Below are positions 14,235 through 62,757 of a DNA stretch of 64,000 nucleotides, one piece after another. Numbering within the stretch: the first letter of the stretch is position 1; each line of letters begins with the position of its first letter. The position numbers and the translations under genes are program-made. The stretch lies in the NCBI GenBank assembly GCA_963575745.1, contig CAUYUJ010020259.1:288230-352229 (forward strand), in the 5' to 3' direction. This stretch comes from Prorocentrum cordatum (lineage: Eukaryota > Sar > Dinophyceae > Prorocentrales > Prorocentraceae). Under the pieces are notes generated by a model. The model was not told the DNA's origin. It ran no database searches and was given only the letters and a program-made list of their open reading frames with translations.

Positions 14235-14299
14235 ATGACCGCCCTCAGGCTGATCGCGGCCACGGCCCTGGCCCTTGCGGCGGCGGAGCGAGCCGACAG
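14235..14299 (+). CDS. Exon 1 of a secreted protein: signal peptide
   Basis: ATG at 14235 (context GCGCCATGA) starts MTALRLIAATALALAAAERA, a textbook signal peptide: short basic n-region, hydrophobic Leu/Ala core, small residues before the cleavage site. The frame runs into an AG|GT donor at 14299/14300. Removing 14300-14472 joins codon AG|G and continues as Ser-Glu-Ala-Leu-Ala-Arg. The protein's function cannot be told from this exon. Later + strand exons (16.5, 19.1, 20.7 and 21.5 kb) may belong to the same gene, but that link is inferred from strand and spacing only. Confidence 0.55.
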
Positions 14300-14301
14300 G
14301 T

Positions 14302-14466
14302 TTAAGTCGGGCCCGTCCCTCTACAGGGGGGATGTTCAAAAACAGTCCAAAAATAGCCAGGAGGATTAATTTTTGCGTATTTTTGGGATCGTTTTGGGTT
14401 ATGTTTATAGTATTTTTTATGATTTTTCGCCCACAATCCCCCTGTAGGGGGACACGCCCGACTTAA
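14302..14466. mobile_element. Introner-like TIR element forming an intron
   Basis: A 165-bp element with perfect 11-bp terminal inverted repeats (TTAAGTCGGGC / GCCCGACTTAA), which extend imperfectly inward through CTCTACAGGGGG / CCCCCTGTAGGGG. It is flanked by an 8-bp direct duplication CGACAGGT (14294-14301 and 14467-14474). The duplication contains AG|GT: the first copy supplies the 5' splice site and the second the 3' AG. Splicing 14300-14472 would restore the pre-insertion exon exactly. The interior is AT-rich and non-coding. An 8-bp duplication is typical of hAT-type transposition. A related copy lies at 16091-16239. Confidence 0.8.
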
Positions 14467-14472
14467 CGACAG

Positions 14473-14630
14473 GTCCGAGGCCCTGGCGCGGGCGGCGGCC
14501 CGGGCGGCCCGGCGGGCGGAGGCCCGATCGGAGCGAACGCGCGAGCGACACGCCACTGCTGCAGCGGGCCTCCTCGGAGGCCCGCGCAGGCCGCCCGCTG
14601 CCAACGCTGGGCCCCCCCGCCCCCCGCTCC
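14473..14630 (+). CDS. Exon 2 of the secreted protein (partial)
   Basis: In phase with exon 1 after removal of the introner, the frame encodes an Ala/Arg/Glu-rich segment (SEALARAAARAARRAEARSE) and then a Pro-rich stretch that merges into a CTC microsatellite. The true 3' end of the exon is not visible. The composition could be a low-complexity propeptide, or the exon may end soon after 14530. Confidence 0.4.
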
Positions 14631-16035: not shown

Positions 16036-16090
16036 CCCCCCCCCGCGCCGGGTTCCTTTGTCGCCCCCCCTCAGTCGTTCCTATCGTTAC

Positions 16091-16239
16091 GTCGGGCATG
16101 TCGCTCTACAGGAAGAGTGTTCAACGATAGTCAACAACCAGTCTGGGGACGATGTTTCGACGATGTCTGGCTATTTTTGAGTGTTTTCGTTGTTTTCCAT
16201 TCTTCTTCCAAAATCCGCCTGTAGGAGGACATGCCCGAC
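16091..16239. mobile_element. Second copy of the introner-family TIR element
   Basis: Perfect 12-bp ends GTCGGGCATGTC / GACATGCCCGAC, followed inward by CTCTACAGGAAGAGTGTTCA. This matches CTCTACAGGGGGGATGTTCA of the 14302 element, with a similar AT-rich interior. The element begins with GT and CTAG follows its right end, so it could act as an intron. No clear target duplication survives. Confidence 0.65.
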
Positions 16240-16498
16240 CTAGTCAGATCCTTCCCCCTCGGGAGAGCGGGGTTTGGGGGGAGAGAGGGGCCCAGCGGCG
16301 CCGAGCCCGAGAGGCCCGCGCGGGCGTTCGAGGGCCTGTGCCTGTGCCGCTCTCTGCTCTTCTGTTGATCACCGAGCGCGTCCCGCGACTCGCAGAGTGA
16401 CTGCTCGCAAGAGGTCCTAAGAACAAGCGCCTGCCTCGATTGTAGGATGGATCGCAAGTCCCCCTCGGCGGACCCGGCCCTTTGCGAGCATTTGCTTT

Positions 16499-16660
16499 AT
16501 GCGAGTAGTGGAGCTCGCTCGTCCTGTCGAGGCGGCGAACGGCACTGCGACCGAGGTCGCGCAGGCCGGCACGGGCGAGTTCCCGTACAACGCCGTCACC
16601 GACTTCCTCGGCGACGACTCCAAGGGGCTGGTGAAGGACCCGGCGGCGCCCACATGGTGA
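16499..16660 (+). CDS. Possible exon, unrecognised
   Basis: One frame reads VELARPVEAANGTATEVAQA, then GEFPYNAVTDFLGDDSKG. This is balanced, non-repetitive, protein-like composition in an area otherwise full of repeats. It contains no recognisable family motif. Its exact splice limits are unknown; a GTGATG donor could lie at 16656. It may be an internal exon of the gene starting at 14235. Confidence 0.35.
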   Translation: MRVVELARPVEAANGTATEVAQAGTGEFPYNAVTDFLGDDSKGLVKDPAAPTW

Positions 16661-16756
16661 TGGGCCAGTTTTCCACCACAACTACCATGGATAGGAGAGG
16701 GGGTAGGAGGAGGAGGATGAGGAGGAGGAGGAGGAGGATGAGGAGGAGGAGGACCA

Positions 16757-17163
16757 CTGTAAACCCAAGAGTCATCAACGATATTGGAGTAAACCCTCCC
16801 TCCAAGCTCCCTCTTCATAGGCCCCTACAACGGCTCACTTCCATTGATGGAACTGCCTCGTTGGAAGACACCCGTTTTGAAGACACTGAAGCGTGCCAAC
16901 ACATTGTTCTCGGGATTCTGACGCCACGGATCAACCTGACGGTTGCGTCGTGACGATCCTGAATCGTACCAGAACGCCATTCCTAGGACTTCAACACAGA
17001 GAACCAACGCAATTGTTGCACCCGGTTAATCCAGAATCCTTCCAAAACACACTTTCTGGTACGTGCATGATGGGAACCTTTGAAACTCTTGCAAACTTGT
17101 AGAACGAATCTGCGCCGCGCTAAGGCGAGAGCCACATTTTGAAGAGGAACCGCCCTCAATCAG

Positions 17164-17218
<55 letters not shown>

Positions 17219-17610
17219 TTTTTGCACATTTTCAAAAACGAATGTGCGCGGCGCTACGGCGAGAGCTACTTTTTGAAAAACTTGTTGAAAACGACCCGCC
17301 CTCAATCCGTGAAGCTCTTGAAACGAATGTGCGCTGTGCTGAGGCGAGAGTCACATTTTGTAGTGCAAATACTAAAAACGAATGTGCGCCGCGCCAAGAC
17401 GAGAGCCACATTTTGAAAACCACCCGCCCTCAATCCGTGAAGCTCTTGCACATATTTAAAACGAATGTGCGCTGCGCTAAAGCAAGAACCACATTTTGAA
17501 AACTACCCGCCCTCAATCCGTGCAACTCTTGCAATTTCTGGAAGCGAATGTGCGCCGCGCTAAGGCGAGAGCCACATTTTGAACTATCTGTGAAACTGTT
17601 GTCAGTTTTT
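16757..17610 (+). repeat. Composite repeat D, copy 1: unique 280-bp head plus tandem units
   Basis: The head (16757-17040) shares order and many 10-20 bp blocks with 23562-23850, such as CTCCCTCCAAG and GAAGCGTGCCA. The tail (17100-17600) has about six units of 75-90 bp with the core GAATGTGCGC...GCGAGAGCCACATTTTGAAA and CCGCCCTCAATCCGTGAAG. A (GT)n run of about 26 units is inserted at 17167-17216. Confidence 0.8.
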
Positions 17611-17714
17611 GAGCTTCAGAGTCACTAATTGTGAGGAGGTCTCAGGCGAAACGCCCGACCCGCACTAAAAGCTGGCCTCGGGGTGCGACAGGGAGAAGTT
17701 ATGTATAAGGAAAG

Positions 17715-18085
17715 GAATGGAGGAGTGGGAGGAGGAGGAGGAGGGGGAGGAGGAGGAGGAGAGGAGGAGGAGGAGGAGGAGGAGGGGAGGAGAGGAGGAG
17801 GAGGAGGAGAGGAGGGAGAGGAGGAGGAGGAGGAGGAGGAGGAGGGAGGAGGGAGGAGGAGGAGGAGGAGGAGGAGGAGAGGAGGAGGAGGGAGGAGGAG
17901 AGGAGGAGGAGGAGGAGGAGTAGGAGGAGGAAGGAGGAGGAGGAGGAGGAGGAGGAGGAAGGAGGAGGAGGAGGAGGAGGAGGAGGAGAATGGGGGAGGA
18001 GGAGGGGGAAGAGGAGGAGGAGGAGAAGGAGGTCCTCCCCATCCTCCGTTCTCCCCCGTCCTACGTATGGTGGTGGTGGTGGTGG
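17715..18085. repeat. (GGA)n array followed by (GGT)n
   Basis: About 330 bp of GGA units on a pure purine strand, then a short GGT run at 18067-18087. Confidence 0.9.
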
Positions 18086-18189
18086 TGGGAGATTGGCCCA
18101 TCAGATGGCGCGAGGGGGAGGCGGCCCTCGCCGAGACGGCAGGCGGGGCTGCTCAAGAGGGCCCTGGGGGCTTGCGGAGGAGGCTCCTT

Positions 18190-18510
18190 GGCATCGGCTG
18201 CGCGCAGGAGGGACCTTGCGCAGGAGTGGCCTCTGGTGCGGGCACACTTCGAAGAAGAAAACACGCCATAAGCATAAACTCGTGGCGCTTCGGGCGGATT
18301 TCTTGGATCCGCGCTGGGCCACCCCGACGGCGCCTCCGGCGCCGCCCCTGGAAGGCTCCGCTCGCCAGGGACGGGGGTCCACCGCAGATCCAAGAAATCC
18401 GCGCGGAGCGCCAAACGATCATGTTTATGCAGTTTTTTCTTCTTCTCACACGGAGGGGGGCCAGATGACCGAGAGGGGCGCGATAGCGGCGGCTTGCGCG
18501 GCTCCGGGGC
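18190..18510. mobile_element. Family B element interrupted by a family C element
   Basis: The left arm (18190-18247: GCAGGAGGGACC...GGAGTGGCCTCTGGTGCGGG) matches the left arm of the B element at 18719. Sequence resuming at 18447 (GCGATAGCGGCGGCTTGCGC) matches the interior of the B copies at 18770 and 62655. The 195-bp insert between them is the family C element. CACAC lies on both sides of the insert (18243-18247 and 18447-18451), probably a target duplication. Confidence 0.6.
18251..18445. mobile_element. Family C MITE, copy 1 (long TIRs)
   Basis: Terminal inverted repeats of about 60 bp begin GAAGAAGAAAA, continue through CATAAGCATAAAC and GGCGCT, and reach GATTTCTTGGATC. The right arm is the reverse complement with few mismatches. 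The centre is a GC palindrome (GGCGCCTCCGGCGCC). Two further copies lie at 35691 and 62821. No coding capacity. Confidence 0.8.
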
Positions 18511-18554
18511 TCAAGAGACGGGGGTCGATGCAGACGGGGGCCAGTCCGAGTCCG

Positions 18555-18690
18555 AGCGCTGGATCTTGCAGGATCCTGCAGAGCCAGGGTTGCATTGACC
18601 CGGGCTTGGGTGCAGGGTCCTGCCTGCAGGATCCAGCAGGATCTTGCAGGATCCTGCAAAGCCTGACTGACCCGGGTCTGGGTTGAGCTG
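18555..18690. repeat. GGATCCTGCAG palindromic minisatellite
   Basis: Repeated GGATC(C/T)TGCAG(G/A) motifs, in both orientations because the motif is partly palindromic. A GACCCGGG(T/C)(C/T)TGGG motif appears twice. Confidence 0.75.
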
Positions 18691-18718
18691 GCCTTTGGGG
18701 AGGCTTGTTGGGATCTGC

Positions 18719-18855
18719 TACGCGTAAGAGTGATCCTTCGCCAGAGTGGCCTTTGGTGCGGGCGCACCGGGGGCGGCGGCTTGCGCGGCTCGGTTTTGAC
18801 CACCCCGACGCCGCGCACCAAAGGATACTCTGGCCCAGGGTCACTCCTGCGTGTA
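18719..18855. mobile_element. Family B MITE, complete copy
   Basis: Inverted arms of about 45 bp: the left arm TACGCGTAAGAGTGATCC...GAGTGGCCTTTGGTGCG is mirrored by a right arm ending CAGGGTCACTCCTGCGTGTA. The loop is GC-rich. Related copies lie at 18190 and 62585. The right end directly abuts the CAGTCGG element. Confidence 0.75.
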
Positions 18856-19008
18856 CAGTCGGCCCAGATTAGCAGGTCGACCCTGCCAGATCAAGGGTAC
18901 CCTCGTGTCCTGTGTCTCGCGACCCATGCCTCTTGCATTCCTGTGGCGCTGTGGCCCTCGGAAGGGTCTTGTGTCCTCTCGCGTGTCCTGTCCAATCGAG
19001 TCCGACTG
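18856..19008. mobile_element. TA-flanked CAGTCGG element
   Basis: The element starts CAGTCGGCCCAGATT and ends AATCGAGTCCGACTG, with TA on each side (18854-18855 and 19009-19010). CAGT ends plus a TA duplication are characteristic of Tc1/mariner-type transposons. At 153 bp with no coding frame, it would be a MITE. Confidence 0.6.
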
Positions 19009-19119
19009 TAGTCGATAGAAGGCGGGCGGGCTTTTCAGGAGTCCCCCCTGTGCCGTGTGAGAGGCCCCGCGGCCTTCTCAGCGGGCGACCTCCCTCGCGC
19101 CACCCCCCTGCGGTGGGCG

Positions 19120-19259
19120 CCGCCGGAAGAGGAGGGCGTGGATCTCGCGGCCCACCTCTCGGGCGAGCTCAACACGCACGCGGGCCAGGCCGTGGGGAAG
19201 GCGGACGAGTACGGCGGCCTCCTGAGGCAGCTCCATTCGGCGACTCCAAAGGGTGTGGT
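19120..19259 (+). CDS. Possible exon, unrecognised
   Basis: One frame gives EEEGVDLAAHLSGELNTHAG, then QAVGKADEYGGLLRQLHSAT. The composition is normal protein-like and amphipathic, with no family recognised. The element at 19262 begins immediately after it, so the 3' limit is unclear. It may be part of the gene spanning 14.2-21.7 kb. Confidence 0.35.
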
Positions 19260-19261
19260 TA

Positions 19262-20420
19262 CAGTCGGGGCGCTGAAGAAGAAACCCTTTTCGTTGGGGA
19301 GGGGCTCGGTGTTCCTTGATTGTTATACAGTTTGCCTTGGGTTTTCCTTTTGTTTTCATGGGAAATCAAAAACGAACTTATGGGAACAAGGGGCCTCGTT
19401 CCTTATTGCGAAGGCCTTACGGCCGTTGCCGCCGACCCTGAAGATGACGAAAGACAACACGAGGGGGGGGGCAGGAGGAGGAGGAGGAGGAGGAGGAGGA
19501 GGAGGCGGAAGGGAGTAGGAGGAGGAAGGGTGAAGGTGGAGGAGGAGGAGGCCTTATGGATGTTGGTTGGGATCTCGTGGTTGACCTCTCGGGGGCGTCT
19601 GGAAGGCAACTTGAAGCCTCTTGGGGGCCGTTGTGGGGCCTCTTGGGGCCTCTTTTGGGCCTCTTGGGGCTTCCGGAGGCCGTCTTCGGCGCATCTTGGG
19701 GGCGTCTTGGCGCCGCTCGGGGGCCTCTTGGGGCCTTTTGGGGGCCTCTTGGGGCTTCCCGGGGGCCTCTTAGGGCGGAAGTCTCGAATTCTCGGTTCCT
19801 CGTCCCCCTCTTGGCCGTTTCTTGGGCCCGTCTTGGGGCCCTATTGGGCCGTCTTGGGCGCCTCTTAGGCTGTCCTGGGGCCTTCTTGGGCCGTCTTGGG
19901 GCCCTCTTGTAGGCCTCTTGGGGCGCTCTTGGGGGCCTCTTGGGGGCCTCTTGGGCCGTCTTGGAGTGTCGGAAAGCCGAAAAGGCGAGAAGGCCAAAAT
20001 CCTTCAAAAACCGATGTAAAATTGACGATTTTGGCGCCTGGGGCCCTCTTGGGTGTGCTCTTGGGGCTCTCTTGGAGCGTCTTGAGGGCCTCTTGGGCCG
20101 TCTTCGGGCCGTCTTGGGCGTCTTGGGGCCATCGTTCGTCGAGTCGAGGCCCTCTTGTACCCTTTTGGGGGTGTCTTCTGTCGCTCTTGGCTCGTCTTGA
20201 AGCTTTTCTGAGCTCCGGGACCCCCCGGGGAGGATGCGTATCTGGGTGGCGACCCCCCCCGGGGACCCCCCCCGGCGACCCCCCCCCCCCGGCGGGGAGG
20301 GTAGGGAGGGGCTTCGCCACGACTCAACTACGACGTTGCTCAATGTCGCTTTGGCTCGCGCGCTCAAGGAGACGGGGAACGACGAAGACGACGAGGGACA
20401 ACGGAGACGGAGACGACGAG

Positions 20421-20480
<60 letters not shown>

Positions 20481-20570
20481 GATCCACGCAAGACGACGAC
20501 ACCGGGATGCGTCTTCCACACGCCGACAGGGTCGGCGGATTTAGGGCTCCTTTGGTCAACGCCCCGACTG
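19262..20570. mobile_element. TA-flanked CAGTCGGGGCG element, 1.3 kb
   Basis: The ends are CAGTCGGGGCGCTGA and TCAACGCCCCGACTG, flanked by TA (19260-19261 and 20571-20572). The first 150 bp match the element at 32126 (TCGTTGGGGAGGGGCTCGGT, GGGGCCTCGTTCCTTA). The interior holds a GGA array, a family E array, C runs and a GAC array, and no transposase. It is a non-autonomous element that has accumulated simple repeats. Confidence 0.65.
19600..20225 (+). repeat. Family E array inside the CAGTCGGGGCG element
   Basis: More than 30 units of the GGGGCCNTCTTGGG type. Near 19975-20035 the array is broken by an AT-richer core containing CCTTCAAAAACC. A similar core (CTTTCAAAAACC) interrupts the array at 43.7-44.2 kb. 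Confidence 0.75.
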
Positions 20571-20693
20571 TACGCCGGGGTGTGGCTTGCGATCCGCGTC
20601 ACTGGGGCACGGGGGGCACCGATTACGCCACCCTCGTCGGGCCTCCTCGGGGTGTGGCTGAGAATCTGGTCGAGGTCCTCGGCCGCCCCCCAG

Positions 20694-21231
20694 GGTGCGG
20701 GTTGCAAACCACAACCTGTGCAAGCCACACCCTTCGGAGTCGCCGATCCATGCTGGGAACGACCTGGTCGTGGCGACCGTGCACGACTTCAAGACCGCGG
20801 TGGGTGAGCACGCCAAGGGCAAGCTCCAGGAGTCCGTCTCTGAGGTCAACTCGGCAGCAGAGGGCGGGGGCTCGTCCGTTGGCGTCAAGGAGATCAAGCA
20901 CGAGGAGGTGGTGCCGTCCCAGAAGATGACCTCTGAGGGCGTGGAGGAGTTCGCGGCGACGCAGTTCGGCCTGCAGGCCATCACCTTCAAGGAGGGCACC
21001 GGTGAGCTCAGCGACGAGTCGGAGGCGCGCGTCCTCCGCGAGTTCGTCGAGCCTCTGAAGGCGGCCAAGGGCAAGGCAGGCTCTGGCGCCCAGTTCCTCT
21101 TCTGCATCTTCTACTCGACCACCGCCGGCGCCGACAACGTGAAGGAAGGCCTGATGCAGCAGCGCGGCGAGGGCCTGGAGAAGATCGTCACCAGGCACGC
21201 CGACGAGGTCCTCGGCTCCGGCAGCTACAAG
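20694..21231 (+). CDS. Exon of a possible OmpA-like domain protein
   Basis: The frame is clearly protein-like from 20755 (VVATVHDFKTAVGEHAKGKL). An acidic linker precedes ITFKEGTGELSDESEARVL, then FLFCIFYSTTAGADN and KEGLMQQRGEGLEKIV. The order (strand, helix with E-x3-L, strand, a D/N-rich loop, L-x2-R-x3-V helix) resembles the OmpA/MotB C-terminal fold, but identity is low and I am not certain. The exon ends at AAG|GTTCGA (21231/21232). The 5' limit could be the CAG at 20691-20693 or later. Confidence 0.5.
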
Positions 21232-21544
21232 GTTCGAGGCGTTGCGAAAAAGCTGGGGGGAAATGATCAGACCGCCTCTCGAGTCGTTCGCTGCGCCGTC
21301 GCCCTCCCTGGTCTCAGGGCTAGCGAAGGGTCGTGGGTGGGAAGGAGGGAAGGGGGGAAGGGGAGGGGGGGGTACGAAGACTGCCGCACACGGCTGGCGT
21401 TTCGGCCACGCTGCCCCGTGCGCCCTTGCACACCTGGCCGCTGCCAGCGCCTCCGGACCTGGGTCACCAGCCGCGTGCAGCTGATCCCCTGACTGCCCCC
21501 TCCCCTTGACTCCTCCCCTCTCCTTTTCCTGCCGCATCCGAGAG

Positions 21545-21676
21545 GTCGGTGGCAAGTTCGAGGGGTACGAGTCGGATCGCCTCGGCGCGATAGTTTACAA
21601 GGTCACCAAGGGGGGTCAGGAGGCCGCATGCTCCCCGCAGGACGCCCAGATCGCGGAGTCTGGCAAAGTTGGCTGA
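21545..21676 (+). CDS. Last exon of the OmpA-like candidate
   Basis: A pyrimidine-rich tract and AG precede 21545. Joining in phase to 21231 gives GSGSYK|VGGKFEGYESDRLG, then AIVYKVTKGGQEAACS and a stop TGA at 21674-21676. The DRLGAIVYK segment fits the last strand of an OmpA-like domain. The intron 21232-21544 has GT...AG ends. Confidence 0.5.
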   Translation, partial: VGGKFEGYESDRLGAIVYKVTKGGQEAACSPQDAQIAESGKVG

Positions 21677-27425: not shown

Positions 27426-28001
27426 ATGGTCGCTCCCGGGCGCGCTGCACTGGCCGCCCTCTTGGCGGCGCGCCCGCTCCTGGCCTCGGCTGCTCGCCTG
27501 GGTGCCGCGGGCGGTAGGGAGCCGGCCGCGTCGTGGTTCGAGTCTCTCACCGCGTTCAACTTCCCGCACGTCTACTCGCTCGCCCTGACCAGGGAGAATC
27601 TTAAGTCCGAGCTGCAGAGGTACTCGTCCGAGTTCGCGCTCGTGGAGCTCTACATGCCCTGGTGCCCCCACTGCCAGCACTTCGCGCCCGAGATGGAGAG
27701 GATAGGCCTCGCCATCAGCCAGTACGGCCAGACGGGCCAGCGTAACATTACCTTCTCTGCGACGGCGGCCTTCCAGAAGCCTCCCTTCAAGAAGGATCCG
27801 CTGCTTGTCACCGGCACAGTGGACTGCATGCGCTCCGCGGCCCTGTGTAACGCCTTCGGCAGCGCTGGCTTCCCGAGGCTGATGTGGGGCCGCCGCGAGG
27901 ACTGGGTAGCTGGGCGCATGGGGAAGATACATTTGCGCTGCCGCGTCCAGCCGCCACCGCACCTGGGCAAGAGAGAGGCGCTGCAGCGCTGGGCAAGGTA
28001 C
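27426..28001 (+). CDS. QSOX: Quiescin sulfhydryl oxidase (QSOX), exon 1: signal peptide and thioredoxin domain
   Basis: QSOX enzymes oxidise thiols to disulfides in the secretory pathway, passing electrons from a thioredoxin CXXC through an Erv/ALR FAD site to O2. This exon has a signal peptide (Met1 to about Ala22) and a thioredoxin domain with active-site WCPHC (Cys80, Cys83). The preceding strand is ALVELYMPW, followed by TGTVDCMRSAALCNAFGSAG and FPRLMWG with the cis-Pro loop. The Met at 27426 (AGCCATGG) is chosen because the hydrophobic leader follows directly. Two GT donors are possible: CAAG|GTACGT after 27997, or TAC|GTAGCA after 28001. The latter leaves phase 0, which matches exon 2. 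Confidence 0.85.
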
Positions 28002-28189
28002 GTAGCAACGCTGCAGCGTGGCGAGGCGGCGGTGGCGTCCCATGATTGTCGCGACGCCTCGGGTGGGGCCTTTGTGCGGTGAAGAACTTTGGCTTAGCGC
28101 GTCGCACCGCGAGTGCTGGCCCAGCAAGCAGGGCATCGCGTGTCGTGAGGGCCGCCGCCGCGACACGCTAAGCAACAGTTCCTGACCGT

Positions 28190-28380
28190 AGGGCTTCTTG
28201 GCGGTTTCTTGGGGGCCTCTCGTGAGGCCTCTGGGGCTCTTGGGGTCCCTGGTCGGGAAATATTTTGCTCTTGTGTGCGTCCTCGAGCCCTCTAGCAGGG
28301 TCTCGGGATCGTCTTGGGCTTGCCTTTGGGCCGCCTTGGGCCAGTCTTGGATCATCTCGGGGCTGTCTTGGTCTGGCCGT
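28190..28380 (+). repeat. Family E array
   Basis: GGGGCCTCT...CTTGGG-type units, as at 13.2 and 19.6 kb. Confidence 0.7.
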
Positions 28381-28569
28381 ACTGCCGTAGGGCATCATGC
28401 TGTGGAGCCTGGAAGCAGTTCCAGGGAATCTCCGAGACCAGGTTGGCACTGGTGGATGTGGATGTGGGCTGCTGGGGAGCCTGCCTTCTGCCCCCGGCCT
28501 GGCCCCGTACCATCTTCGGGGGGCCTCGCCTGTCCCGAAAATTGGTGTCTTTTCTTGTGCCCGACGTGG

Positions 28570-28690
28570 GCTCGATGCGGACTCGACGCAGATTTGGCGG
28601 GGATCCGGCGCGGATCCGACACGGATTCCACACGGATCCGACGAGTCCGACATGGACTCGACACGGATTCGACGCGGATAGGGCCGCGAC
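28570..28690. repeat. CGGATCCGACA-type minisatellite
   Basis: About ten 11-13 bp units such as CACGGATCCGACG, GACTCGACACGG and GATTCGACGCGG. No coding meaning evident. Confidence 0.75.
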
Positions 28691-28859
28691 GGGGCAGACA
28701 AGGGCCTCTGGGGATGCCACATGAACCTGGACCCCGTCCCCCGACCCGAGGGGCGAGAAGAAGGGGGTGCTCCGCGGCGAGACGGGGGGCGGGAAGCCCC
28801 CCGAGGGGGAGCCCACTTCCATGTCCCACCACAGCGGACCTCCCCCCCCCCCCAGAGAA

Positions 28860-28965
28860 ACGCTCCTCCTCCTCGTCGTCCTCCTCCTCCTCCTCCTCCT
28901 CCCTCTTCTCCTCCATTCCCTCCTCCCCCTCCTCCTCCTCTTCCTCTTCCTCCGCCCCACCCCGT
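28860..28965. repeat. (CTC)n array
   Basis: CTC/TCC units on a pyrimidine strand inside the QSOX intron. Confidence 0.9.
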
Positions 28966-29159
28966 CTCCCCCCGTTCCGACAGCGGAGTCGAGGGAGGGA
29001 AACACGGAAACGAGAGGAAGGCGAACTGCACCAGTACGCGCACACTTTTCGCGTCAGCGACTCAATGGGACCCAGTCGAGCGGTCCAAATTCAGGTTACC
29101 CAGCTGACACGAGACGATATGCCACAGAGACTCCCAGAGCACCAACGGTCGTGAGTGAA

Positions 29160-30300
29160 GAGGCACGTGACTGAACCCAAGTAAATTCGGCCGCCCAATC
29201 GCGGAAAACAATATGCGCAGACGGTCAAGTCGCAAAGACCCTGAACACACATTGCATGTTAGCTGCCTGATGAGGCACCAACTGGGCCAGATGCAGAAGT
29301 CAGATGCAGCTGGCGGCGATTAAGTCACTGAGACCTGGTGGGGACAGCCGGTCGTAAGTGATGAGGCACGGGCCTCGTACACGCACGCACACACACACAC
29401 GCGCACACATTCACCCACATGCGGCAGCACACCACGCAAGATACGAGCGGCAGACGTGGCACGCGGCATGTACGCCCACACACAGACACGCAAACGTCGT
29501 GGCTCGCTTGACCCGTCAAGACACCACGATGCGCCATTCTCTGAGAGACATCGCCCCGCCTGCCCCCGCAGGTCGAACATAGGTAGCAAGGCGTCTTGTC
29601 GACAGGGCACAAAGGCCTCCACAATGCAGCACAATGCAGTATTTCAGCGCAGGGTGGGGCGATTCGAGTGCGACCCCGTGACGACTGGCAGGTGCGCTGA
29701 CGTCTCGGTGCCCCCGGGCTTCCCCCCCCGACCCTCCTCTCCACCGCGGACATTTGACCGCTACCGCCGCTGTGATCCCATCTTTGGAGGTTTTTTTTTC
29801 AGTTGGCGGATCCAACACAAATGTGAAGACCACGTATGCGTATTGGAACATCTGTTGCACGCCATCGCCTTCAGCTGCGATTGGGCCGTGGATGCAGGAC
29901 AGGTGGGCGTTGCCGCATGAGGCAGCGAGAACAGCAACCTGGTGTTACAAACGGTACGGACAGCATATGATACAGCACATGTATCTAGTCCTATGTGCTC
30001 GAGTTCTACGTTGAGGCTCTTCGCCCCGGCTCCCGAGCCACGTGCTTAAGGGTTCAGACCAGGGTCTGGTTGTGCATATGACGGCGTTGTGGGCACCGTA
30101 CGTGGTAGGGGCTCGCAGGCAGGGTTTTCTGGCCGCAGTAGTGGATATGGATATTTCTTGGGGGTCTTCCCTTCGTTTTCATCCATGTCCACTGCTGGCT
30201 GCTTGGGTGGGCTTGCCTGTGAGAACTCGCGCCCTGGCCTGGCGTTCTGGCTCGTTGGGCGGCCCCTCAGATGGTCTGCGGCGTCGCGGGCGTGGGGCAA
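29160..30300. other. Intron DNA, no gene seen; CA-rich at 29375-29500
   Basis: Mixed-composition DNA with an ACACGCAC low-complexity stretch. The short open frames have no recognisable motifs. Confidence 0.55.
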
Positions 30301-30304
30301 ATGA

Positions 30305-30505
30305 TCGAAGGATTGCAAAAAAACGAAGGATTGCAAAAAAACGAAGGATTGCAAAAAAAAACGAAGGATTGCAAAAAAGCGAAGGATTGCAAAAAACGAA
30401 GGATTGCAAAAAAACGAAGGATTGCAACAAAAACGAAGGATTTTGCAATCCTTCGTTCTTTTTGCAATCCTTTTTTTGCAATCCTTCGTTGCAATCCTTC
30501 GTTCA
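30305..30505. repeat. CGAAGGATTGCAAAAAA direct repeats folding onto inverted copies
   Basis: Eight direct copies of an 18-bp unit (CGAAGGATTGCAAAAAAA, A-run length varies) at 30306-30444 are followed at once by about four inverted copies (GCAATCCTTCGTT) to 30504. A stem of about 60 bp can form, with surplus direct copies left over. Confidence 0.9.
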
Positions 30506-30726
30506 AGCGGCGCACCCATCTCAAAACGAGGCCGTTCGAAGGCATTGCCGAGGTCGTCAGGCTCGGCGGCTCCGAACCGCAGCGGTCGCGGTGCACTCGG
30601 GCACAGCCACCCCGCTGCTGGGGGCCTCCGCCTTGGGAATGCGGACGAGGGGGCTGCTGCTCGGCCACGTCTTGCCGGCCCTGGGGCTTTTAACCGCTCC
30701 GGTCGTCTCGCACAGCAGGGGACAAG

Positions 30727-30932
30727 CAGTCCTGCTGCTCGGGGAGGCCGGATGTGGCCTTCTTCCCTTGCCCCCCGCTCCATGCCAGGCAGCCCGAGAA
30801 CTGAAAGAGGTTGGGAGAGCACGCCCGTCAGTCCTGCTGCTCGGGGAGGCTGGATAGGGCATCCTTCCCTCGCCCCACGCTCCATGCCAGGCAGCCCGAG
30901 AACTTAAAGGAGGTTGGGAGAGCACGCCCGTT
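30727..30932. repeat. Tandem duplication, 102-bp unit
   Basis: Two copies, from about 30728 and 30830, each holding GTCCTGCTGCTCGGGGAGG, CTCCATGCCAGGCAGCCCG and GGTTGGGAGAGCACGCCCGT, with about 10 differences. Confidence 0.85.
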
Positions 30933-31169
30933 GGCAACACACTACGCCAGACATTATAAAACCAAATTGGCACACACTGTCCGAACAAAAAAGCTGGCAG
31001 ACACCATGCTCTGCCGCAGTTTCGCTGGAGGAGCCGAAGAGACCCAACGTTTTGATTTCTATTCGGTTTTATAAAGGTGGTGGCATTCTCGCCCCTTCAC
31101 GCATCATCCTGTGTAAGTCCGCCGAGGAGGTCTCTAAGACAGACGCTCTCTGGGAGGGCCCGTCGACGG

Positions 31170-31660
31170 CCCAAGACGGCATGAAGGCGGCGCCACGGCG
31201 GCCCTAAGAAGCCGTGCGGAAGGCGAAACAAAAAGCCCCCCAAGCGCTCAAGAGAGCCCGAAGACGGCCCAAGAGGACCCATAGTTCAAGGGACCTCCAG
31301 GGCTGCTCCGCAGGAGCCCAGGGAAACCGCGGGATGGCCCAAACGAGCTCGCAGAAGTGAAGTGACAGCGTTCCTTTTACTTCTCATCCTGCCCACCAGC
31401 ATCAGCAGCATCCTCATCGTCAGCACCATCATCGTTCTCATTTTCCTGCTCGTCATCATCGTCGATATTGTCGTTTTCGTTGTCGTCGTCATCACCATTC
31501 GAATGTCCCCTCCTCGGCCTCGTCATCTTCGTCGCTCTGGAGGCCCCTGGAAGCTCCAGCTGTTTCCAGAAGCTTTCAAGGCCTCCAAGATCACCCCAAG
31601 ACGTCTTGTTAGGCCCATGAGTGGCCCAAGACGGCCCAACAGACCTCCAACATCGCCGTA
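31170..31660 (-). repeat. Family E units on the opposite strand, CAT/CGT array between
   Basis: CCCAAGACGGCCC-type motifs at 31165-31330 and 31590-31650 are the reverse complement of family E. A degenerate CATCATCGT array lies at 31385-31500. Confidence 0.65.
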
Positions 31661-31734
31661 AACGCTGTGCGGCACCCGCTCACGCCACATTCATTAGCTT
31701 GACAGTGTGCTCCCTGTTCTCATCTTCGCGTGTT

Positions 31735-31945
31735 CACCGCCCCCGTCTCTCTCTTTCTCTCTCGCTCTGTCTCTCTCTGTCCCTCCCTCTCCCTCTCTTT
31801 CTGTCCCGCTACTCTGTTTACGGTTGCCGCCAGATTATTTGCGCACTCCATTGTCTAACACATAGTTACTCTCTACTCTCTCTCTCTCTCTCTGCTCCAC
31901 TCTTCTTTGTGCTCTCTGGCAAATACTTTTTTCTCTCTACAATCC
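31735..31945. repeat. (TC)n low-complexity tracts
   Basis: CTCTCT runs near 31745-31805 and 31875-31897. No gene. Confidence 0.85.
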
Positions 31946-32125
31946 ATTATCTCATTCTGACCGCGGTTGCAAAGCCTCGGGGACCTTGTGCTCTCGAACA
32001 CCAGCTCCCCACTCTTCTCTGGTCGACTCAACTCCCTGACCCTGCTAGCTTTTGCAGTGGAAGCCCGGAGGGATCTGGCCACAGCCAACACCTCCTGACC
32101 CCCGGGAGCCTGACAGTGCCAGGTA

Positions 32126-32480
32126 CAGTCGGGGCGCTGCAGAAGGAACCCTTCTCGTTGGGGAGGGGCTCGGTGTTCCTTCATTGTGTCGCAGCTTGCT
32201 TTCGGCTTCCTTTGATTCTTCTGATTGGGTAGTCGAAGTTTAACTGTTGACAAAAAGGGGCCTCGTTCCTTACAGCCGGACCGAGGTATAAGATCGAGGT
32301 CGGTTCGGGGAGGGTACCCTGGTGTTCTTCGTGTTTGTTGGGCGTTCTTTTGCATCCTGGGGAGGGGGCCCTTGTTTGTCCTGTTTGGTTTGGCCAGCGG
32401 GGGGTCTCATGTTCTTGAAGGAGGGTCTTCTGGCCTAGTTTCGACTGTACTTGGGGTTCCCTGGGGTCAACGCCCCGACG
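32126..32480. mobile_element. CAGTCGGGGCG element, compact copy
   Basis: The left end TA|CAGTCGGGGCGCTG and first 150 bp match the 19262 element. The right end GTCAACGCCCCGAC matches that element's right end but has lost the final CTGTA (reads CGGTC). At 355 bp with no array inside, it approximates the ancestral non-autonomous form. Confidence 0.65.
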
Positions 32481-32659
32481 GTCTTCCGGAACGGGGAGCC
32501 CCCGGGAGCCCCCGGGGAGCCCCCGGGAGCCTCTCCGCCGACCGACGCCCGACCCCCTTCGGAGACGCCGGAGCCGAAGGCGCCGAGCACCGGCCGGGGT
32601 GAAGCGCGGCGAGGCGCGCGCACGCAGGGCCGGGCGACAGCGATCGGGGCCTCGTGCCC

Positions 32660-32832
32660 CCAGGCTCCTCCTCCTCCTCCTCCTCCTCCTCCTCCTCCTC
32701 CTCCTCCTCGTCCTCCTCGTCCTCGTCCTCCTCTCCTCCTCGTCCTCCTCGTCCTCGTCCTCCTCGTCCTCGTCCTCCTCCTCCTCCTCCTCCTCCTCCT
32801 CCTCGTCGTCGTCCTCCTCTCCTCCTCCTGTG
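32660..32832. repeat. (CTC)n with CGT interruptions
   Basis: CTCCTC broken by CTCGTC, on a strand poor in A. CCCCGGGAGCC units precede it at 32498-32530. Confidence 0.9.
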
Positions 32833-33194
32833 CCCCCCGTCCGACTCGGCAGTCCGTGTGAGCGCCCTCGCGTGTCCAAGTGCCACCGCGTGTCGGCGAC
32901 GCCAGTCTTTGGGCGTTGCGTGCAGGCGCGCGACGGCGCGGCGGAGTCTTTCAGGCGAGGGCGCTGGGAGGGTGGTGCGGCGGCCGCGATGGGGCACTCC
33001 GACGGCCCAGGGGGAACGCGCAGGGCTCACCCAGAGGGAACCTTTGCGCACGAAGTCTCACGTGGGGGGCAGCCGACAGAGGGGGACGAAAGGGGAGCGA
33101 CAGGGGGAACACAGGATGAGGGACAGCAAGGTACTCGAGCGCACGGGAACCCGCGAACTCGCACCATCAGCATAACACACAGCATCTGGGGTGA

Positions 33195-33470
33195 GTCTTT
33201 TGCTGTGGGGTGAGTCCTGGGGCCGACTTGGAGGGTCTCAGGGCTGTCTTGGGCTCGTCTTTGGGCCTCCTTGGGCCAGTATTGGATTATCTAGGGGCCG
33301 TCTTGGGTTAGTCCTGGGGCATTCTTGGTGAGTGCGACGGCAGGATCGGATAATATGTAAGACCGTATTGAAACGGCCATGGCCCGTCTTGGCCGTTCGT
33401 GCGTCGTCTCGGGGCCTTTGGACGCCTTCCTCAGGGGGTCCTCGGGGGCCTGATGGGCCGCTGAGAGTCC
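33195..33470 (+). repeat. Family E array
   Basis: GGGCCGTCTTGGG-type units with an AT-richer core near 33330-33375. It ends about 165 bp before the QSOX middle exon. Confidence 0.7.
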
Positions 33471-33635
33471 CAGCAACGTCCTGGTAAGGCAGCAGCGTCG
33501 GGATCCGAAACCCAAAGACGCGGAGTCTTGGTGCTCAAAGCAACCCTTTCTTGGGATTGAGTGCCGTAGTTGGTAATCGACGCGTTGAAACGGCCTGGAG
33601 GACGTATACCGCGGCAAGCGTGGTGGCGGATCCAG

Positions 33636-34035
33636 GAGGTCAACCTAGAAGATGGCACCGCGGAGGCACTCGCCAAGGTCATCAATGTGCGGCTCAATGC
33701 CCACCTAGACCCTTCGAAGACTTCGAGGGAGCAAATCATGCCGCTGATGTATCTCAAGGATGGGAAGCCGATGAAGCCTGCGACTGGGCTGGTTCTTTCA
33801 CCCAAATCGGCAGACACTTGGGATATGCAGCTGGCGGTGGCTCTGTTCATCCGCGGCGCCATGTCGCGGAACACCTTCGCTCCTTCGGGCAGGCAACCGC
33901 CATGGTTGAGGCTCGACGGCGGCAACAAGCAGGCCCTCGTGAATTTCGTTGGAGTGCTTGCCGAGCGTTTCCCCGAGGCGTCAGCAGCCAGGGGCTCGCC
34001 CTGCAAGGCGTCCCTCAAGGCCTTGCACCAGAGGA
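33636..34035 (+). CDS. QSOX: QSOX, middle exon: helix-rich region
   Basis: After an AG at 33634-33635 the frame reads EVNLEDGTAEALAKVINVRL, later WDMQLAVALFIRGAMSRNTF, then LDGGNKQALVNFVGVLAERF and PCKASLKALHQ. This matches the helix-rich region of QSOX: an Asp/Glu-Ala pair opening the first helix, then AL-x2-FV-x2-LA-x2-FP. It lies between the thioredoxin and Erv exons on the same strand, as the family order demands. The downstream donor is not obvious; dinoflagellate introns may use GC or GA donors. A small extra exon between 28.0 and 33.6 kb cannot be excluded. Confidence 0.75.
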
Positions 34036-34340
34036 GGGCGGCGCGCAGAAAGGGGGGGTGGAGCGAGGGGTGGTGGCCTTCTGCAGAAGGCAGAGGGCCT
34101 TCTCAGAAGCCATCCGACCTTCTGTCAAGCCTCGTTGGATTCGAAGTACCCACAGCGGCATAGACATAATTTCTCGGAGGTCCGCGCGGACCTCCGATAC
34201 ATTATGCTTGTGCCATCTTTGTGTTTCCCTGCGGAACTCTCCGAGCCCTTGTGAGAGTCCCCGAGCCCTTGTGAGAGTCCACGTGCTCTCTCACAAGGTC
34301 ACCTCCTTTGCGCCCCCCCCCTCTGCGCGCTGCCGTCGAG

Positions 34341-34983
34341 GATGCTCACGGACTTCAACTCCCTGGGGCGCTGGGACAAGGACGGCGTGGGCACCAAAAT
34401 CTTCAAGCTCGATCCCGACAAGCTGGAGAAAGAGTGGCAGCTCTGCGGCACGAACTGGGCGGACTATTCGAAGGGATGGAGCAGCTGCCGCGGCACGTGG
34501 CCAGGCAAGCGCGGCTTCACCTGTGGGCTTTGGAGCACTTTCCACTCCGTCGCGGCGCGCTCGGACGACAAGTCCGCCGCGCACGATACCGAGGCGCTGC
34601 GGCAGGCGGTCCTGAAGTTCTTCGACTGCGACGACTGCCGGCACCACTTCTCCACCATCGCGGTCAAGCCCAAGGACACGGCGACCAAGGCCGCGGCGCA
34701 GCTCTGGTGGTGGCAGGCGCACAACAACGTGAACATGCGCGTGCTCGGTATCGAGCAGCGCTACCAGGACGGCGACCCGAGCTTCCCCAAGGTGCAGTGG
34801 CCGACTCAGGCGCAGTGCCCAGGGTGCTGGCTTCAGGCATCTCCTGGCAGTCTGCTCTCCGTCTCGCGCCGAGGCGCTGGCGCGCAGGCCACCCTCGCCA
34901 CGACAGATGCGCCCGCTTCGGGCGAGGCCTGGGTGTGGAACGCCAACGAGGTGACGGGCTTCTTGGAGCGCTTCTACGGCTGA
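34341..34983 (+). CDS. QSOX: QSOX, last exon: Erv/ALR FAD-dependent oxidase domain
   Basis: Preceded by a C-rich tract and AG at 34339-34340. Counted from the Met at 34342, the domain shows RGFTCGLWSTFHSVA (residues 57-71), active-site CDDC at 96-99, the FAD-contacting WWWQAHNNVN (122-131) and the second CPGC at 159-162. These are all hallmark residues of Erv/ALR oxidases. Stop TGA is at 34981-34983. No transmembrane helix follows, unlike animal QSOX1 long forms, so the enzyme should be soluble in the secretory pathway or secreted. The frame is open and undamaged. Confidence 0.85.
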
Positions 34984-51321: not shown

Positions 51322-52649
51322 ATGATGTCCCGTATCGCTGCGCTCCTTCTGCCCTCGCTGGCCCTCGCGGCCGCCGAGGCTGGAGATCGCGCGGAGACCT
51401 GCAGGGGCGGCGTGTGCCACCCAGGAGAGGAGGAAGGCGCCGCTCTTCTGCAGAGCAGGGTGGCGCAGCAGGCGAGCGGAGTGCTGGGTGTCTGCGCTCC
51501 GGGAGCCAATGTGCGGTGCCCGGGGTCCAGCAGCATGTGCGCGGGCGACCAGTGCTGCCCGCCGGCGCTGGGATCCGGGGGCACGTTCCCGTGCCCGTCC
51601 GCGAGCCCCAGCTTCTCGGGGTGCGTCAACAACACGAAGGTCGACGACTGCCTGGCGACGACAACGACGACGACGACGACAACGACGGCGACCACCTGCG
51701 CTCTGGGAGCCAATGTGCGGTGCCCAGGGTCCAGCAGCATGTGCGCGGGCGACCAGTGCTGCCCGCCGGCGCTGGGATCCGGCGGCACGTTCCCGTGCCC
51801 GTCCGCGAGCCCCAGCTTTTCGGGGTGCGTCAACAACACGAAGGTCGACGACTGCCTGGCCACGACAACGACGACGACGACGACAACGACGGCGAACACC
51901 TGCGCTCTGGGAGCCAATGTGCAGTGCCCAGGGTCCAGCAGCATGTGCGCGGGCGACCAGTGCTGCCCGCCTGCGCTGGGATCTGGCGGCACGTTCCCGT
52001 GCCCGTCCGCGAGTCCCAGCTTTTCGGGGTGCGTCAACAACACGAAGGTCGACGACTGCCTGGCTGCCTCCCTGGTGGAGCTGAGCACCTGCGCTCTGGG
52101 AGCCAATGTGCGGTGCCCAGGGTCCAGCAGCATGTGCGCGGGCGACCAGTGCTGCCCGCCGGCGCTGGGATCGGGGGGCACGTTCCCGTGCCCGTCCGCG
52201 AGCCCCAGCTTTTCGGGGTGCGTCAACAACACGAAGGTCGACGACTGCCTGGCCACGACAACGACGACCACGACGACGACGACGGCGAACACCTGCGCTC
52301 TGGGAGCCAATGTGCAGTGCCCAGGGTCCAGCAGCATGTGCGCGGGCGACCAGTGCTGCCCGCCTGCGCTGGGATCCGGCGGCACGTTCCCGTGCCCGTC
52401 CGCGAGTCCCAGCTTTTCGGGGTGCGTCAACAACACGAAGGTCGACGACTGCCTGGCTGCCTCCCTGGTGGAGCTGAGCACCTGCGCTCTGGGAGCCAAT
52501 GTGCGGTGCCCAGGGTCCAGCAGCATGTGCGCGGGCGACCAGTGCTGCCCGCCGGCGCTGGGATCTGGCGGCACGTTCCCGTGCCCGTCCGCGAGCCCCA
52601 GCTTTTCGGGGTGCGTCAACAACACGAAGGTCGACGACTGCCTGGCCAC

Positions 52650-52680
<31 letters not shown>

Positions 52681-54038
52681 AACACCTGCGCTCTGGGAGC
52701 CAATGTGCAGTGCCCAGGGTCCAGCAGCATGTGCGCGGGCGACCAGTGCTGCCCGCCTGCGCTGGGATCTGGCGGCACGTTCCCGTGCCCGTCGCGAGCC
52801 CCAGCTTTTCGGGGTGCGTCAACAACACGAAGGTCGACGACTGCCTGGCTGCCTCCCTGGTGGAGCTGAGCACCTGCGCTCTGGGAGCCAATGTGCAGTG
52901 CCCAGGGTCCAGCAGCATGTGCGCGGGCGACCAGTGCTGCCCGCCGGCGCTGGGATCTGGCGGCACGTTCCCGTGCCCGTCCGCGAGCCCCAGCTTTTCG
53001 GGGTGCGTCAACAACACGAAGGTCGACGACTGCCTGGCCACGACAACGACGACCACGACGACGACGACGACGGCGAACACCTGCGCTCTGGGAGCCAATG
53101 TACAGTGCCCAGGGTCCAGCAGCATGTGCGCGGGCGACCAGTGCTGCCCGCCTGCGCTGGGATCTGGCGGCACGTTCCCGTGCCCGTCTGCCAGCCCCAG
53201 CTTTTCGGGGTGCGTCAACAACACGAAGGTCGACGACTGCCTGGCTGCCTCCCTGGTGGAGCTGAGCACCTGCGCTCTGGGAGCCAATGTGCAGTGCCCA
53301 GGGTCCAGCAGCATGTGCGCGGGCGACCAGTGCTGCCCGCCGGCGCTGGGATCGGGGGGCACGTTCCCGTGCCCGTCCGCGAGCCCCAGCTTCTCGGGGT
53401 GCGTCAACAACACGAAGGTCGACGACTGCCTGGCGACGACAACGACGACGACGACGACAACGACGGCGACCACCTGCGCTCTGGGAGCCAATGTGCAGTG
53501 CCCAGGGTCCAGCAGCATGTGCGCGGGCGACCAGTGCTGCCCGCCGGCGCTGGGATCCGGCGGCACGTTCCCGTGCCCGTCCGCGAGCCCCAGCTTTTCG
53601 GGGTGCGTCAACAACACGAAGGTCGACGACTGCCTGGCCACGACAACAACGACGACAACGACGACGACAACGACTGCGAACACCTGCGCTCCGGGAGCCA
53701 ATGTGCAGTGCCCAGGGTCCAGCAGCATGTGCGCGGGCGACCAGTGCTGCCCGCCTGCGCTGGGATCTGGCGGCACGTTCCCGTGCCCGTCCGCGAGTCC
53801 CAGCTTTTCGGGGTGCGTCAACAACACGAAGGTCGACGACTGCCTGGCTGCCTCCCTGGTGGAGCTGAGCACCTGCGCTCTGGGAGCCAATGTGCAGTGC
53901 CCAGGGTCCAGCAGCATGTGCGCGGGCGACCAGTGCTGCCCGCCGGCGCTGGGATCCGGCGGCACCTTCCCGTGCCCGTCCGCGAGCCCCAGCTTCTCGG
54001 GGTGCGTCAACAACACGAAGGTCGACGACTGCCTGGCC

Positions 54039-54069
<31 letters not shown>

Positions 54070-54272
54070 CGGCGAACACCTGCGCTCCGGGAGCCAATGT
54101 GCAGTGCCCAGGGTCCAGCAGCATGTGCGCGGGCGACCAGTGCTGCCCGCCGGCGTTGGGATCGGGGGGCACGTTCCCGTGCCCGTCTGCGAGCCCCAGC
54201 TTTTCGGGGTGCGTCAACAACACGAAGGTCGACGACTGCCTGGCTGCCTCCCTGGTGGCCGCCACGGCCTGA
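51322..54272 (+). CDS. Secreted cysteine-rich protein of 14 tandem domains (one frameshift)
   Basis: ATG at 51322 opens a signal peptide (MMSRIAALLLPSLALAAAEA) and a short acidic pro-region ending LLQSRVAQQASG. Then come 14 near-identical domains of about 54 residues. Each has eight Cys in the pattern C-x7-C-x6-C-x4-CC-x11-C-x9-C-x8-C, with CPGSSSMCAGDQCCP and the N-glycosylation sequon NNT. Domains are joined either by Thr-rich linkers (ACG repeats) or by AASLVELS. The chain ends AASLVAATA with TGA at 54270. One base (C) is missing near 52793 in domain 7, shifting the frame; both halves are otherwise open. Similar MCAGxQCCP domains occur in predicted dinoflagellate extracellular proteins. 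Their function is unknown to me; a cell-surface or extracellular structural role is inferred. Confidence 0.8.
51490..54250 (+). repeat. 14-unit coding tandem repeat, about 190-210 bp each
   Basis: Unit starts (CTGGGAGCCAATGTG) lie near 51500, 51706, 51907, 52096, 52300, 52489, 52693, 52882, 53088, 53278, 53485, 53694, 53880 and 54088. Linker type runs T,T,A,T,A,T,A,T,A,T,T,A,T,A (T = Thr run, A = AASLVELS), so most of the array is a dimer of about 395 bp. Nucleotide identity is very high, including silent sites. Confidence 0.9.
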
Positions 54273-62168: not shown

Positions 62169-62409
62169 GGGAAGGGGACAGCACTTTGGGCCAGCACTCG
62201 GCTATTCCCCTCCCGGCCCGCGCCGGTCCAGGTTGTGCGATCGGCAGAGGGGCGGTGGGCCCTCTCTCCAGGGCCCGCGGCCGTCGCTGCCCGCCGCGCA
62301 TGTTTTCCAATGTTGGCACGGCAGGCTGGCGCCGCGTCGACGCGGCGGCGTCACCTCGCGCGGGCGTTGAAGACTGAACGTCGCGGGTGGCCCAGAGCGA
62401 CTAGACGTA

Positions 62410-62584
62410 CAGTCAACCCGCATAGTAAGGATGGGGGCAATTTTCCCAAGGGTACCCTTGCATCCTTGGCTCCGCGGCCCATCCGTGGCCATTTTTGGTG
62501 GCCGCACCCCGGTCGAAAAGCCTCGAAACGGCCTTCCAAGGCCCTTGCATCCTTATCGTGCGTCCTTATGATACGGGTTGACTG
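62410..62584. mobile_element. TA-flanked CAGTCAACCCG MITE, best copy
   Basis: Perfect 11-bp ends CAGTCAACCCG / CGGGTTGACTG with TA on both sides (62408-62409 and 62585-62586), extended by an imperfect inner inverted repeat (CATAGTAAGG / CCTTATGATA). 175 bp, non-coding. Other copies lie at 14994 and 50643. The ends and TA duplication indicate a Tc1/mariner-like transposase acting in trans. Confidence 0.8.
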
Positions 62585-62757
62585 TAAGAGTGACCTTTCG
62601 CCGGAGTGACCTTTCTGGTGCGGGTCCACGGGCCTCTCGATCGCCGAGTACGGTGCGATAGTGGCGTCTTGCGCGCTTGTGGTTGGTCCCCCCGCGGCGG
62701 CCCCCACAAAGCCGCGCATCGAAGGTCACTCTTACCCAGGGTCACTCTTGCGTGTAG
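62585..62757. mobile_element. Family B MITE, copy 3
   Basis: The left arm TAAGAGTGACCTTTCGCCGG is mirrored by a right arm ending CCAGGGTCACTCTTGCGTGTA. The interior GCGATAGTGGCGTCTTGCGC matches the other B copies. It directly abuts the CAGTCAACCCG element on its left. Confidence 0.7.

Follow-up and report, generated by a model that had tools for sequence, protein, structure and literature searches.

The window analysed here, that is, the whole stretch of 64,000 nucleotides, corresponds to C19410:288230-352229 in the 4.13-Gb assembly of Prorocentrum cordatum and contains a gene for a secreted-type protein (the host gene), the first exon of which is interrupted by a short element, E1. The positions of the exons, of E1 and of its flanking duplications are presented in Table 1. 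When compared with protein P0081, exon 1 ends near 14521, with a GC-AG border that is one of 8 equivalent cuts. An earlier sequence-only reading had placed E1 inside a signal-peptide coding exon; such an exon is real, conserved and signal-peptide-like, and it stops short of the CTC microsatellite.

Table 1 Exons of the host gene and inserted elements in the window
Feature	Position	Strand	Basis or remark
Exon 1, 5' part, MTALRLIAATALALAAAERAD plus AG of codon 22	14235..14299	+	100% identity to P0081/P0082 residues 1-22
Left copy of target-site duplication, CGACAGGT	14294..14301	+	Exact 8 bp; AG|GT is the putative 5' splice site
Putative 5' splice site, in left duplication copy	exon end 14299, intron start 14300	+	Sequence
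E1, MITE without coding capacity	14302..14466	+	TIRs, family copies
Right copy of target-site duplication, CGACAGGT	14467..14474	+	AG is the putative 3' splice site; intron end 14472, exon from 14473
Exon 1, 3' part, ending GAG|GC	14473..14521	+	P0081 match; 8 equivalent cuts at this border
W2, second, more diverged MITE copy	16087..16243	+	Intron 1 of host gene; not mentioned in the sequence-only reading
Next exon, AANGTATEV...GLVK, donor AAG|GA	16532..16636	+	P0081 match
Exon EGVDLAAHL...RQLH	19132..19236	+	P0081 match, genome search
Exon AGNDLVV...GSYK	20752..21231	+	P0081 match, genome search
Last exon, stop TGA	21545..21676	+	P0081 match

The first homologue search, with one exon as the query, gave no match at E<=0.001 among 50 candidates, and a query built from the window exons yielded 10 proteins at E<=1 among 7,996 scored: P0081 (311 aa; from jgi, with a longest contig of 1,146 bases), P0082 (from MMETSP), seven relatives and the public gene model P0090. 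The last of these spans window positions 16447-21676 with frame-shifted N-terminal exons: its start, at 16447, lies in a different frame, and the exon near 19140 is likewise read out of frame. Since P0090 includes neither exon 1 nor E1, it gives the splice no support, and the signal-peptide exon of the host gene has been lost from this public model. Searches of the host protein against phage records and against PDB sequences returned no matches, nor did Pfam for P0081, and the AlphaFold model of the host protein (mean pLDDT 43.7, which is low) gave weak OmpA/MotB-like matches, none of them at E<=0.001.

E1 is 165 bp long and lies between two exact copies of CGACAGGT. Its TIRs, TTAAGTCGGGC, are perfect over 11 bp, and the inverted repeat reaches 34 nt at 85% complementarity. 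Both copies of the duplication carry AG|GT, and the interval from the GT of the first to the AG of the second (14300-14472, 173 bp, GT...AG) can be taken out seamlessly and in phase, splitting a codon AG|G. The sequence-only reading had proposed precisely this arrangement, namely, perfect 11-bp TIRs and an 8-bp flanking duplication that can supply a donor from copy one and an acceptor from copy two, and it was confirmed on each of these points. By eye, no polypyrimidine tract is evident upstream of the acceptor AG.

The structure of E1 is not due to chance. Scanning the window, after low-complexity filtering, for duplications of 8 bp accompanied by TIRs matching at >=10/12 positions yielded 7 pairs, and the six besides E1 sit in short-unit repeats. 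The inner TIR motif GTCGGGCNYGTCNYYCTACAGG was found 4 times in the window, all exact, against 0.05 occurrences expected with <=3 mismatches allowed, because E1 and W2 hold two each. The predicted RNA hairpin of E1 has an energy of -80.9 kcal/mol, compared with -47.1 +/- 4.2 for shuffled sequences (z = -7.97; 0/200 equally stable). The flanks of W2, TCCTATCG and TCAGATCC, agree at 5/8 positions and are devoid of AGGT. The TIR motif had 0 matches in each of the viral_contigs and genome_contigs collections, and Rfam at gathering scores gave 0 matches. In the host gene, inverted ends of introns 1 and 4 were not significant (65/500 and 146/500 shuffles as good, respectively).

Is the insert absent from the products of the gene? 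P0081 and P0082 start with MTALRLIAATALALAAAERADRSEALARAAARAARRAEAANGT; the window codes for residues 1-22 ahead of E1 and for DRSEALARAAARAARRAEA after it, and both proteins read through the E1 site as AAERADRSEALAR. The seven relatives have AERA[D/E]RSE at this site, and in the alignment of nine proteins (P0090 excluded), A-E-R-A-x-R-S-E is invariant save for x. Joining the coding segments of Table 1, from 14235-14299 through to 21545-21673, gives a product of 311 aa, 309 of which are identical to those of P0081, the differences being confined to residues 101-102 (GG for SD). The proposal that splicing restores the uninterrupted exon, with its codon AG|G, is thus supported by comparison at the protein level. 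P0081 appears to be transcript-derived because its complete frame lies on a 1.1-kb contig, as against a gene of 7.4 kb with five interruptions (including the element E3, see below); P0081 and P0082 are both probably of this origin. These transcript-type proteins suggest that E1 is spliced.

The purity of these two sequences deserves attention. P0082 is mixed, with residues 238-307 being 100% identical to a paralogue on contig C15561, and P0081 may be partly mis-assembled, as its residues 101-102 equal those of the paralogue. At codons 101-102 (19200-19236), the genome reads YGGLLRQ against YSDLLRQ in P0081, P0082 and the paralogue; this difference could reflect a mixed assembly, a strain difference or mRNA editing. 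Residues 101-102 of P0081 lie well away from E1, and the sequences on either side of the E1 junction are specific to this locus.

The search for further genomic copies that the sequence-only reading had called for recovered 39 more, with the same ends and with 8-bp duplications. With E1 plus its duplications as the query, 40 places (E1 and the 39) were scored among 3,496 first-look candidates, and the alignments numbered 86 altogether when matches of the inverted arms were counted. The family set comprised 41 copies, that is, the 39 fetched and the two of the window (W1, which is E1, and W2), with none dropped; this sample is biased towards E1, the duplication of which was part of the query. 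The element ends coincide across the 41 copies, which are 77-93% identical to a consensus of 160 bp. Flank columns -1 to -8 match in 30-37/41 copies and columns -9 to -14 in 7-16/41. The mean agreement between the two flanks is 6.46/8, compared with 2.86 for flanks paired from different copies; the duplication is perfect in 16/41 copies, has 7 or 8 matches in 25/41 and has <=5 in 10/41. The family-wide target-site duplication (TSD) is therefore 8 bp. Its target consensus is nnnTAGnn, or in shorter form nnnTAnnn, with T at position 4 in 29/41, A at position 5 in 26.5/41 and G at position 6 in 23/41. In a stretch of 264 kb around the window (including 22,800 N), 4 matches span >=150/160 consensus positions, and 2 of the 4 lie beyond the window itself. 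The string AGGTTTAAGTCGGGC, in which AGGT directly precedes TTAAGTCGGGC, occurs at 1,080 genomic places, compared with 2 for the reversed control, a count that is no measure of enrichment. Short, non-coding, bounded by TIRs, flanked by a duplication of constant length and present in many copies, E1 is a MITE, a non-autonomous DNA transposon of a high-copy P. cordatum family.

Another question concerns the state of the site before insertion. With P0081 as the query, 8 genomic matches reached E<=0.001; they fall on two contigs, that of the window and that of the C15561 paralogue. The latter has a single uninterrupted site, GCCGACAGGTCCGAG, without the element; its sequence GAGGCCGACAGGTCCGAGACG contains one CGACAGGT, and 15 consecutive bases are those of the joined E1 flanks. 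The paralogue (L075, L069, L070, L074) is spread over ~38 kb, with an apparent intron border a few bases ahead of the position that corresponds to the E1 site. The joined 26-nt flank, with <=3 mismatches allowed, matched 7 genomic places (1 for the reversed control), namely, the E1/exon junction with 2 mismatches and six places with 3. Four of the six share one common sequence, which encodes AERSEALA (ADRSEALA in the window), with E where P0081 has D, and may represent related uninterrupted exons. A second exact uninterrupted copy of the E1-bearing exon was not found in the assembly; therefore, within the assembly, the product lacking E1 most likely comes from the window locus.

Taken together, these data make it very likely that insertion of the E1 MITE duplicated CGACAGGT and that the AG|GT pair of the duplication serves the GT-AG removal of a 173-nt insert. 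A transposase provided in trans would have made a staggered 8-bp cut at this target in the signal-peptide-coding exon, E1 would have been inserted and gap repair would have doubled the 8 bp, a step consistent with the anatomy of the element, the duplications of the family and the paralogous empty site. The GT of the left copy would then act as the donor and the AG of the right copy as the acceptor, and the insert (the element and one copy of the duplication) would leave as a canonical GT-AG spliceosomal intron, rebuilding codon AG|G. The spliceosome is the presumed agent of this removal, and the hairpin, which pairs the two splice sites spatially, may be of help to it. An introner is an intron located at an insertion site and absent from the ancestral site: here, transcript-type proteins lack E1, and the paralogous site is empty. 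The duplication appears to supply both splice sites, with AG|GT present in both copies and no residues added relative to P0081. Intron birth by DNA transposition at one locus, as the sequence-only reading had proposed, is well supported by the paralogous site and the proteins lacking E1 and by the 8-bp duplication found family-wide. The origin of introns is usually inferred from distant comparisons; the E1 locus unites the filled site, the element family, the length of the duplication, a paralogous empty site and mRNA-type products without the insert.

It could be argued that E1 is instead a recent, unspliced MITE that disrupts the gene in the strain sequenced, that the transcripts come from strains lacking E1 and that AG|GT is coincidental. 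The 8/8 duplication of E1 fits a young insertion, and P0081 and P0082 may stem from other strains; they could derive from a strain or from cells with an allele lacking E1. The other members of the family point the same way: a crude codon-position test detected a coding signal at 7/41 copies, W1 among them, and none at 34/41, and AGGT stands in both copies of the duplication in just 3/41 (W1, L010 and L032; in at least one copy, 5/41). Nevertheless, E1 kept in the transcript would end translation after 44 aa, yet the remaining exons are open and the joined gene agrees with P0081 at 309/311 residues, and the insert is placed exactly for seamless, in-phase GT-AG removal. We therefore regard an unspliced insertion as improbable. 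An origin of E1 as an old spliceosomal intron of the ordinary type, merely resembling a transposon, would suit its intron-like size, its GT-AG borders and its position in a multi-intron gene, but the genomic copies with the same ends and 8-bp duplications, together with the paralogue lacking an insert at this position, make such an origin highly improbable. Equally remote is the idea that the true duplication is TTAA, with a TIR from GTCGGGC as in TTAA-specific transposons, and that CGACAGGT is a chance repeat: the TIR does start with palindromic TTAA, but the family flanks agree across 8 bp outside it, and TTAA varies among copies (TTAC, TCAA, GTAA).

If E1 arose as an intron through its duplication, do other copies make introns as well? 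The sequence-only reading had asked whether copies lie in genes with AGGT duplications. W1 does; among the 41 copies examined, AGGT on both sides is scarce, and the flanks of L010 and L032 do not look coding. No clear coding sequence was found in the flanks of L010, L018, L032 and L042, and ACCT, the other-strand equivalent of AGGT, was present in the duplications of 0/41 copies. The family is a general MITE family, and E1 is its sole copy shown as an intron. We tentatively suggest, as a possibility we hold to be less probable than its opposite, that the target preference of the transposase, nnnTAGnn (G or C at position 7), tends to create a proto-splice site, AG|G(T), within the duplicated bases, which would make the family a pre-adapted intron maker without splice signals of its own. 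Such a preference would tie the site choice of the transposase to the supply of splice sites, and if it exists, many more unannotated introns of P. cordatum may be found among the genic copies flanked by AGGT.

The mechanism and the kind, that is, introners co-opting splice signals of the target site, are known. Introners for which the duplication or insertion site provides both splice sites have already been published (Gozashti et al. 2022, PMC9860276). As described there, those of Florenciella and others resemble E1 in being transposon-made introns with both splice sites from the duplication or target; compared by that description, E1 differs in belonging to another lineage, in being a TIR MITE with an 8-bp duplication and in having a single copy shown as an intron. 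The introners of Symbiodinium microadriaticum are, like E1, dinoflagellate TIR DNA elements with a donor from the duplication, but according to the same account, their duplication is 4 bp and they bring their own 3' splice site, whereas the 8-bp duplication of E1 supplies both (PMC9860276). Those of Aureococcus share the 8-bp duplication, but they bring both splice sites with them and lengthen the mRNA by 12 nt, where E1 adds nothing (PMC9860276). Introner elements have also been reported in the bloom-forming dinoflagellate P. cordatum itself (PMC10666404), as introns with inverted and direct repeats at their ends; the pattern given there is generic (inverted repeats of 8-20 nt, direct repeats of 3-5 nt) and names no family, and the direct repeat of E1 is 8 bp. 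Introners of the Amoebophrya type are described as having mostly non-canonical borders and direct repeats of 3-5 nt, from which E1 differs in its GT-AG borders and 8-nt repeat; such direct repeats are also noted in some canonical introns (PMC7789003). For Polarella glacialis, 12,253 recent introner introns are attributed to Roy et al. 2023, as cited in PMC11453091. In the introner literature searched, a scope outside which Roy et al. 2023 lies, we found no description of the E1 MITE family.

Among transposons, MITEs of the hAT Buster group, for example, Drosophila Mar, are described as short and non-coding with an 8-bp duplication nnnTAnnn, like E1 (PMC3517528). The Mar TIR, CAG(G/A)GGTAGGC, is unlike that of E1 in a comparison by eye with Mar alone (PMC3517528). 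The E1 family is therefore not filed in the hAT Buster group, the likeness resting on the duplication consensus.

Further elements were observed in the host gene. E3 (19237-20746, 1510 bp) has TIRs of 22 nt (21/22; score unmatched in 500 shuffles) and the duplication TCCAT, and it lies exactly between RQLH and AGND; its exact removal keeps the frame, and GT/GC/GA-AG borders are impossible. The view of E3 as a proven non-canonical intron was withdrawn: P0081 reads across it, but the C15561 paralogue, which has no E3, shares long identical runs with P0081, which may be mixed in this stretch. E2 (16658-18103) has TIRs of 30 nt at 83% and flanks CATGG/GATGG; it was ruled out as an exon-splitting introner, as P0081 puts it within intron 2. 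This intron (16637-19131, GA-AG) has inverted ends CCGGCGGCGCCCA (score unmatched in 500 shuffles) and AGGA at both borders and is perhaps an older introner.

Downstream, at 27426-34983 on the + strand, lies a gene for a QSOX-type sulfhydryl oxidase with a thioredoxin-like exon and an Erv1/Alr domain (Pfam 4.2e-17), the closest relative of which is P0001 (83%). The possibility that the E1-bearing exon is part of this gene was ruled out, as QSOX has its own start near 27426. The ends of the second QSOX intron (34034-34340, GA-AG) are inverted and in part of low complexity. A long tandem array occupies 51474-54325, its + strand encoding repeats such as CPGSSSMCAGDQCCPP, and a segment of 179 bp at 62408-62586 has 24-nt inverted ends (87.5%), TACAGTCAACCCGCATAGTAAGGA, without a clear duplication.
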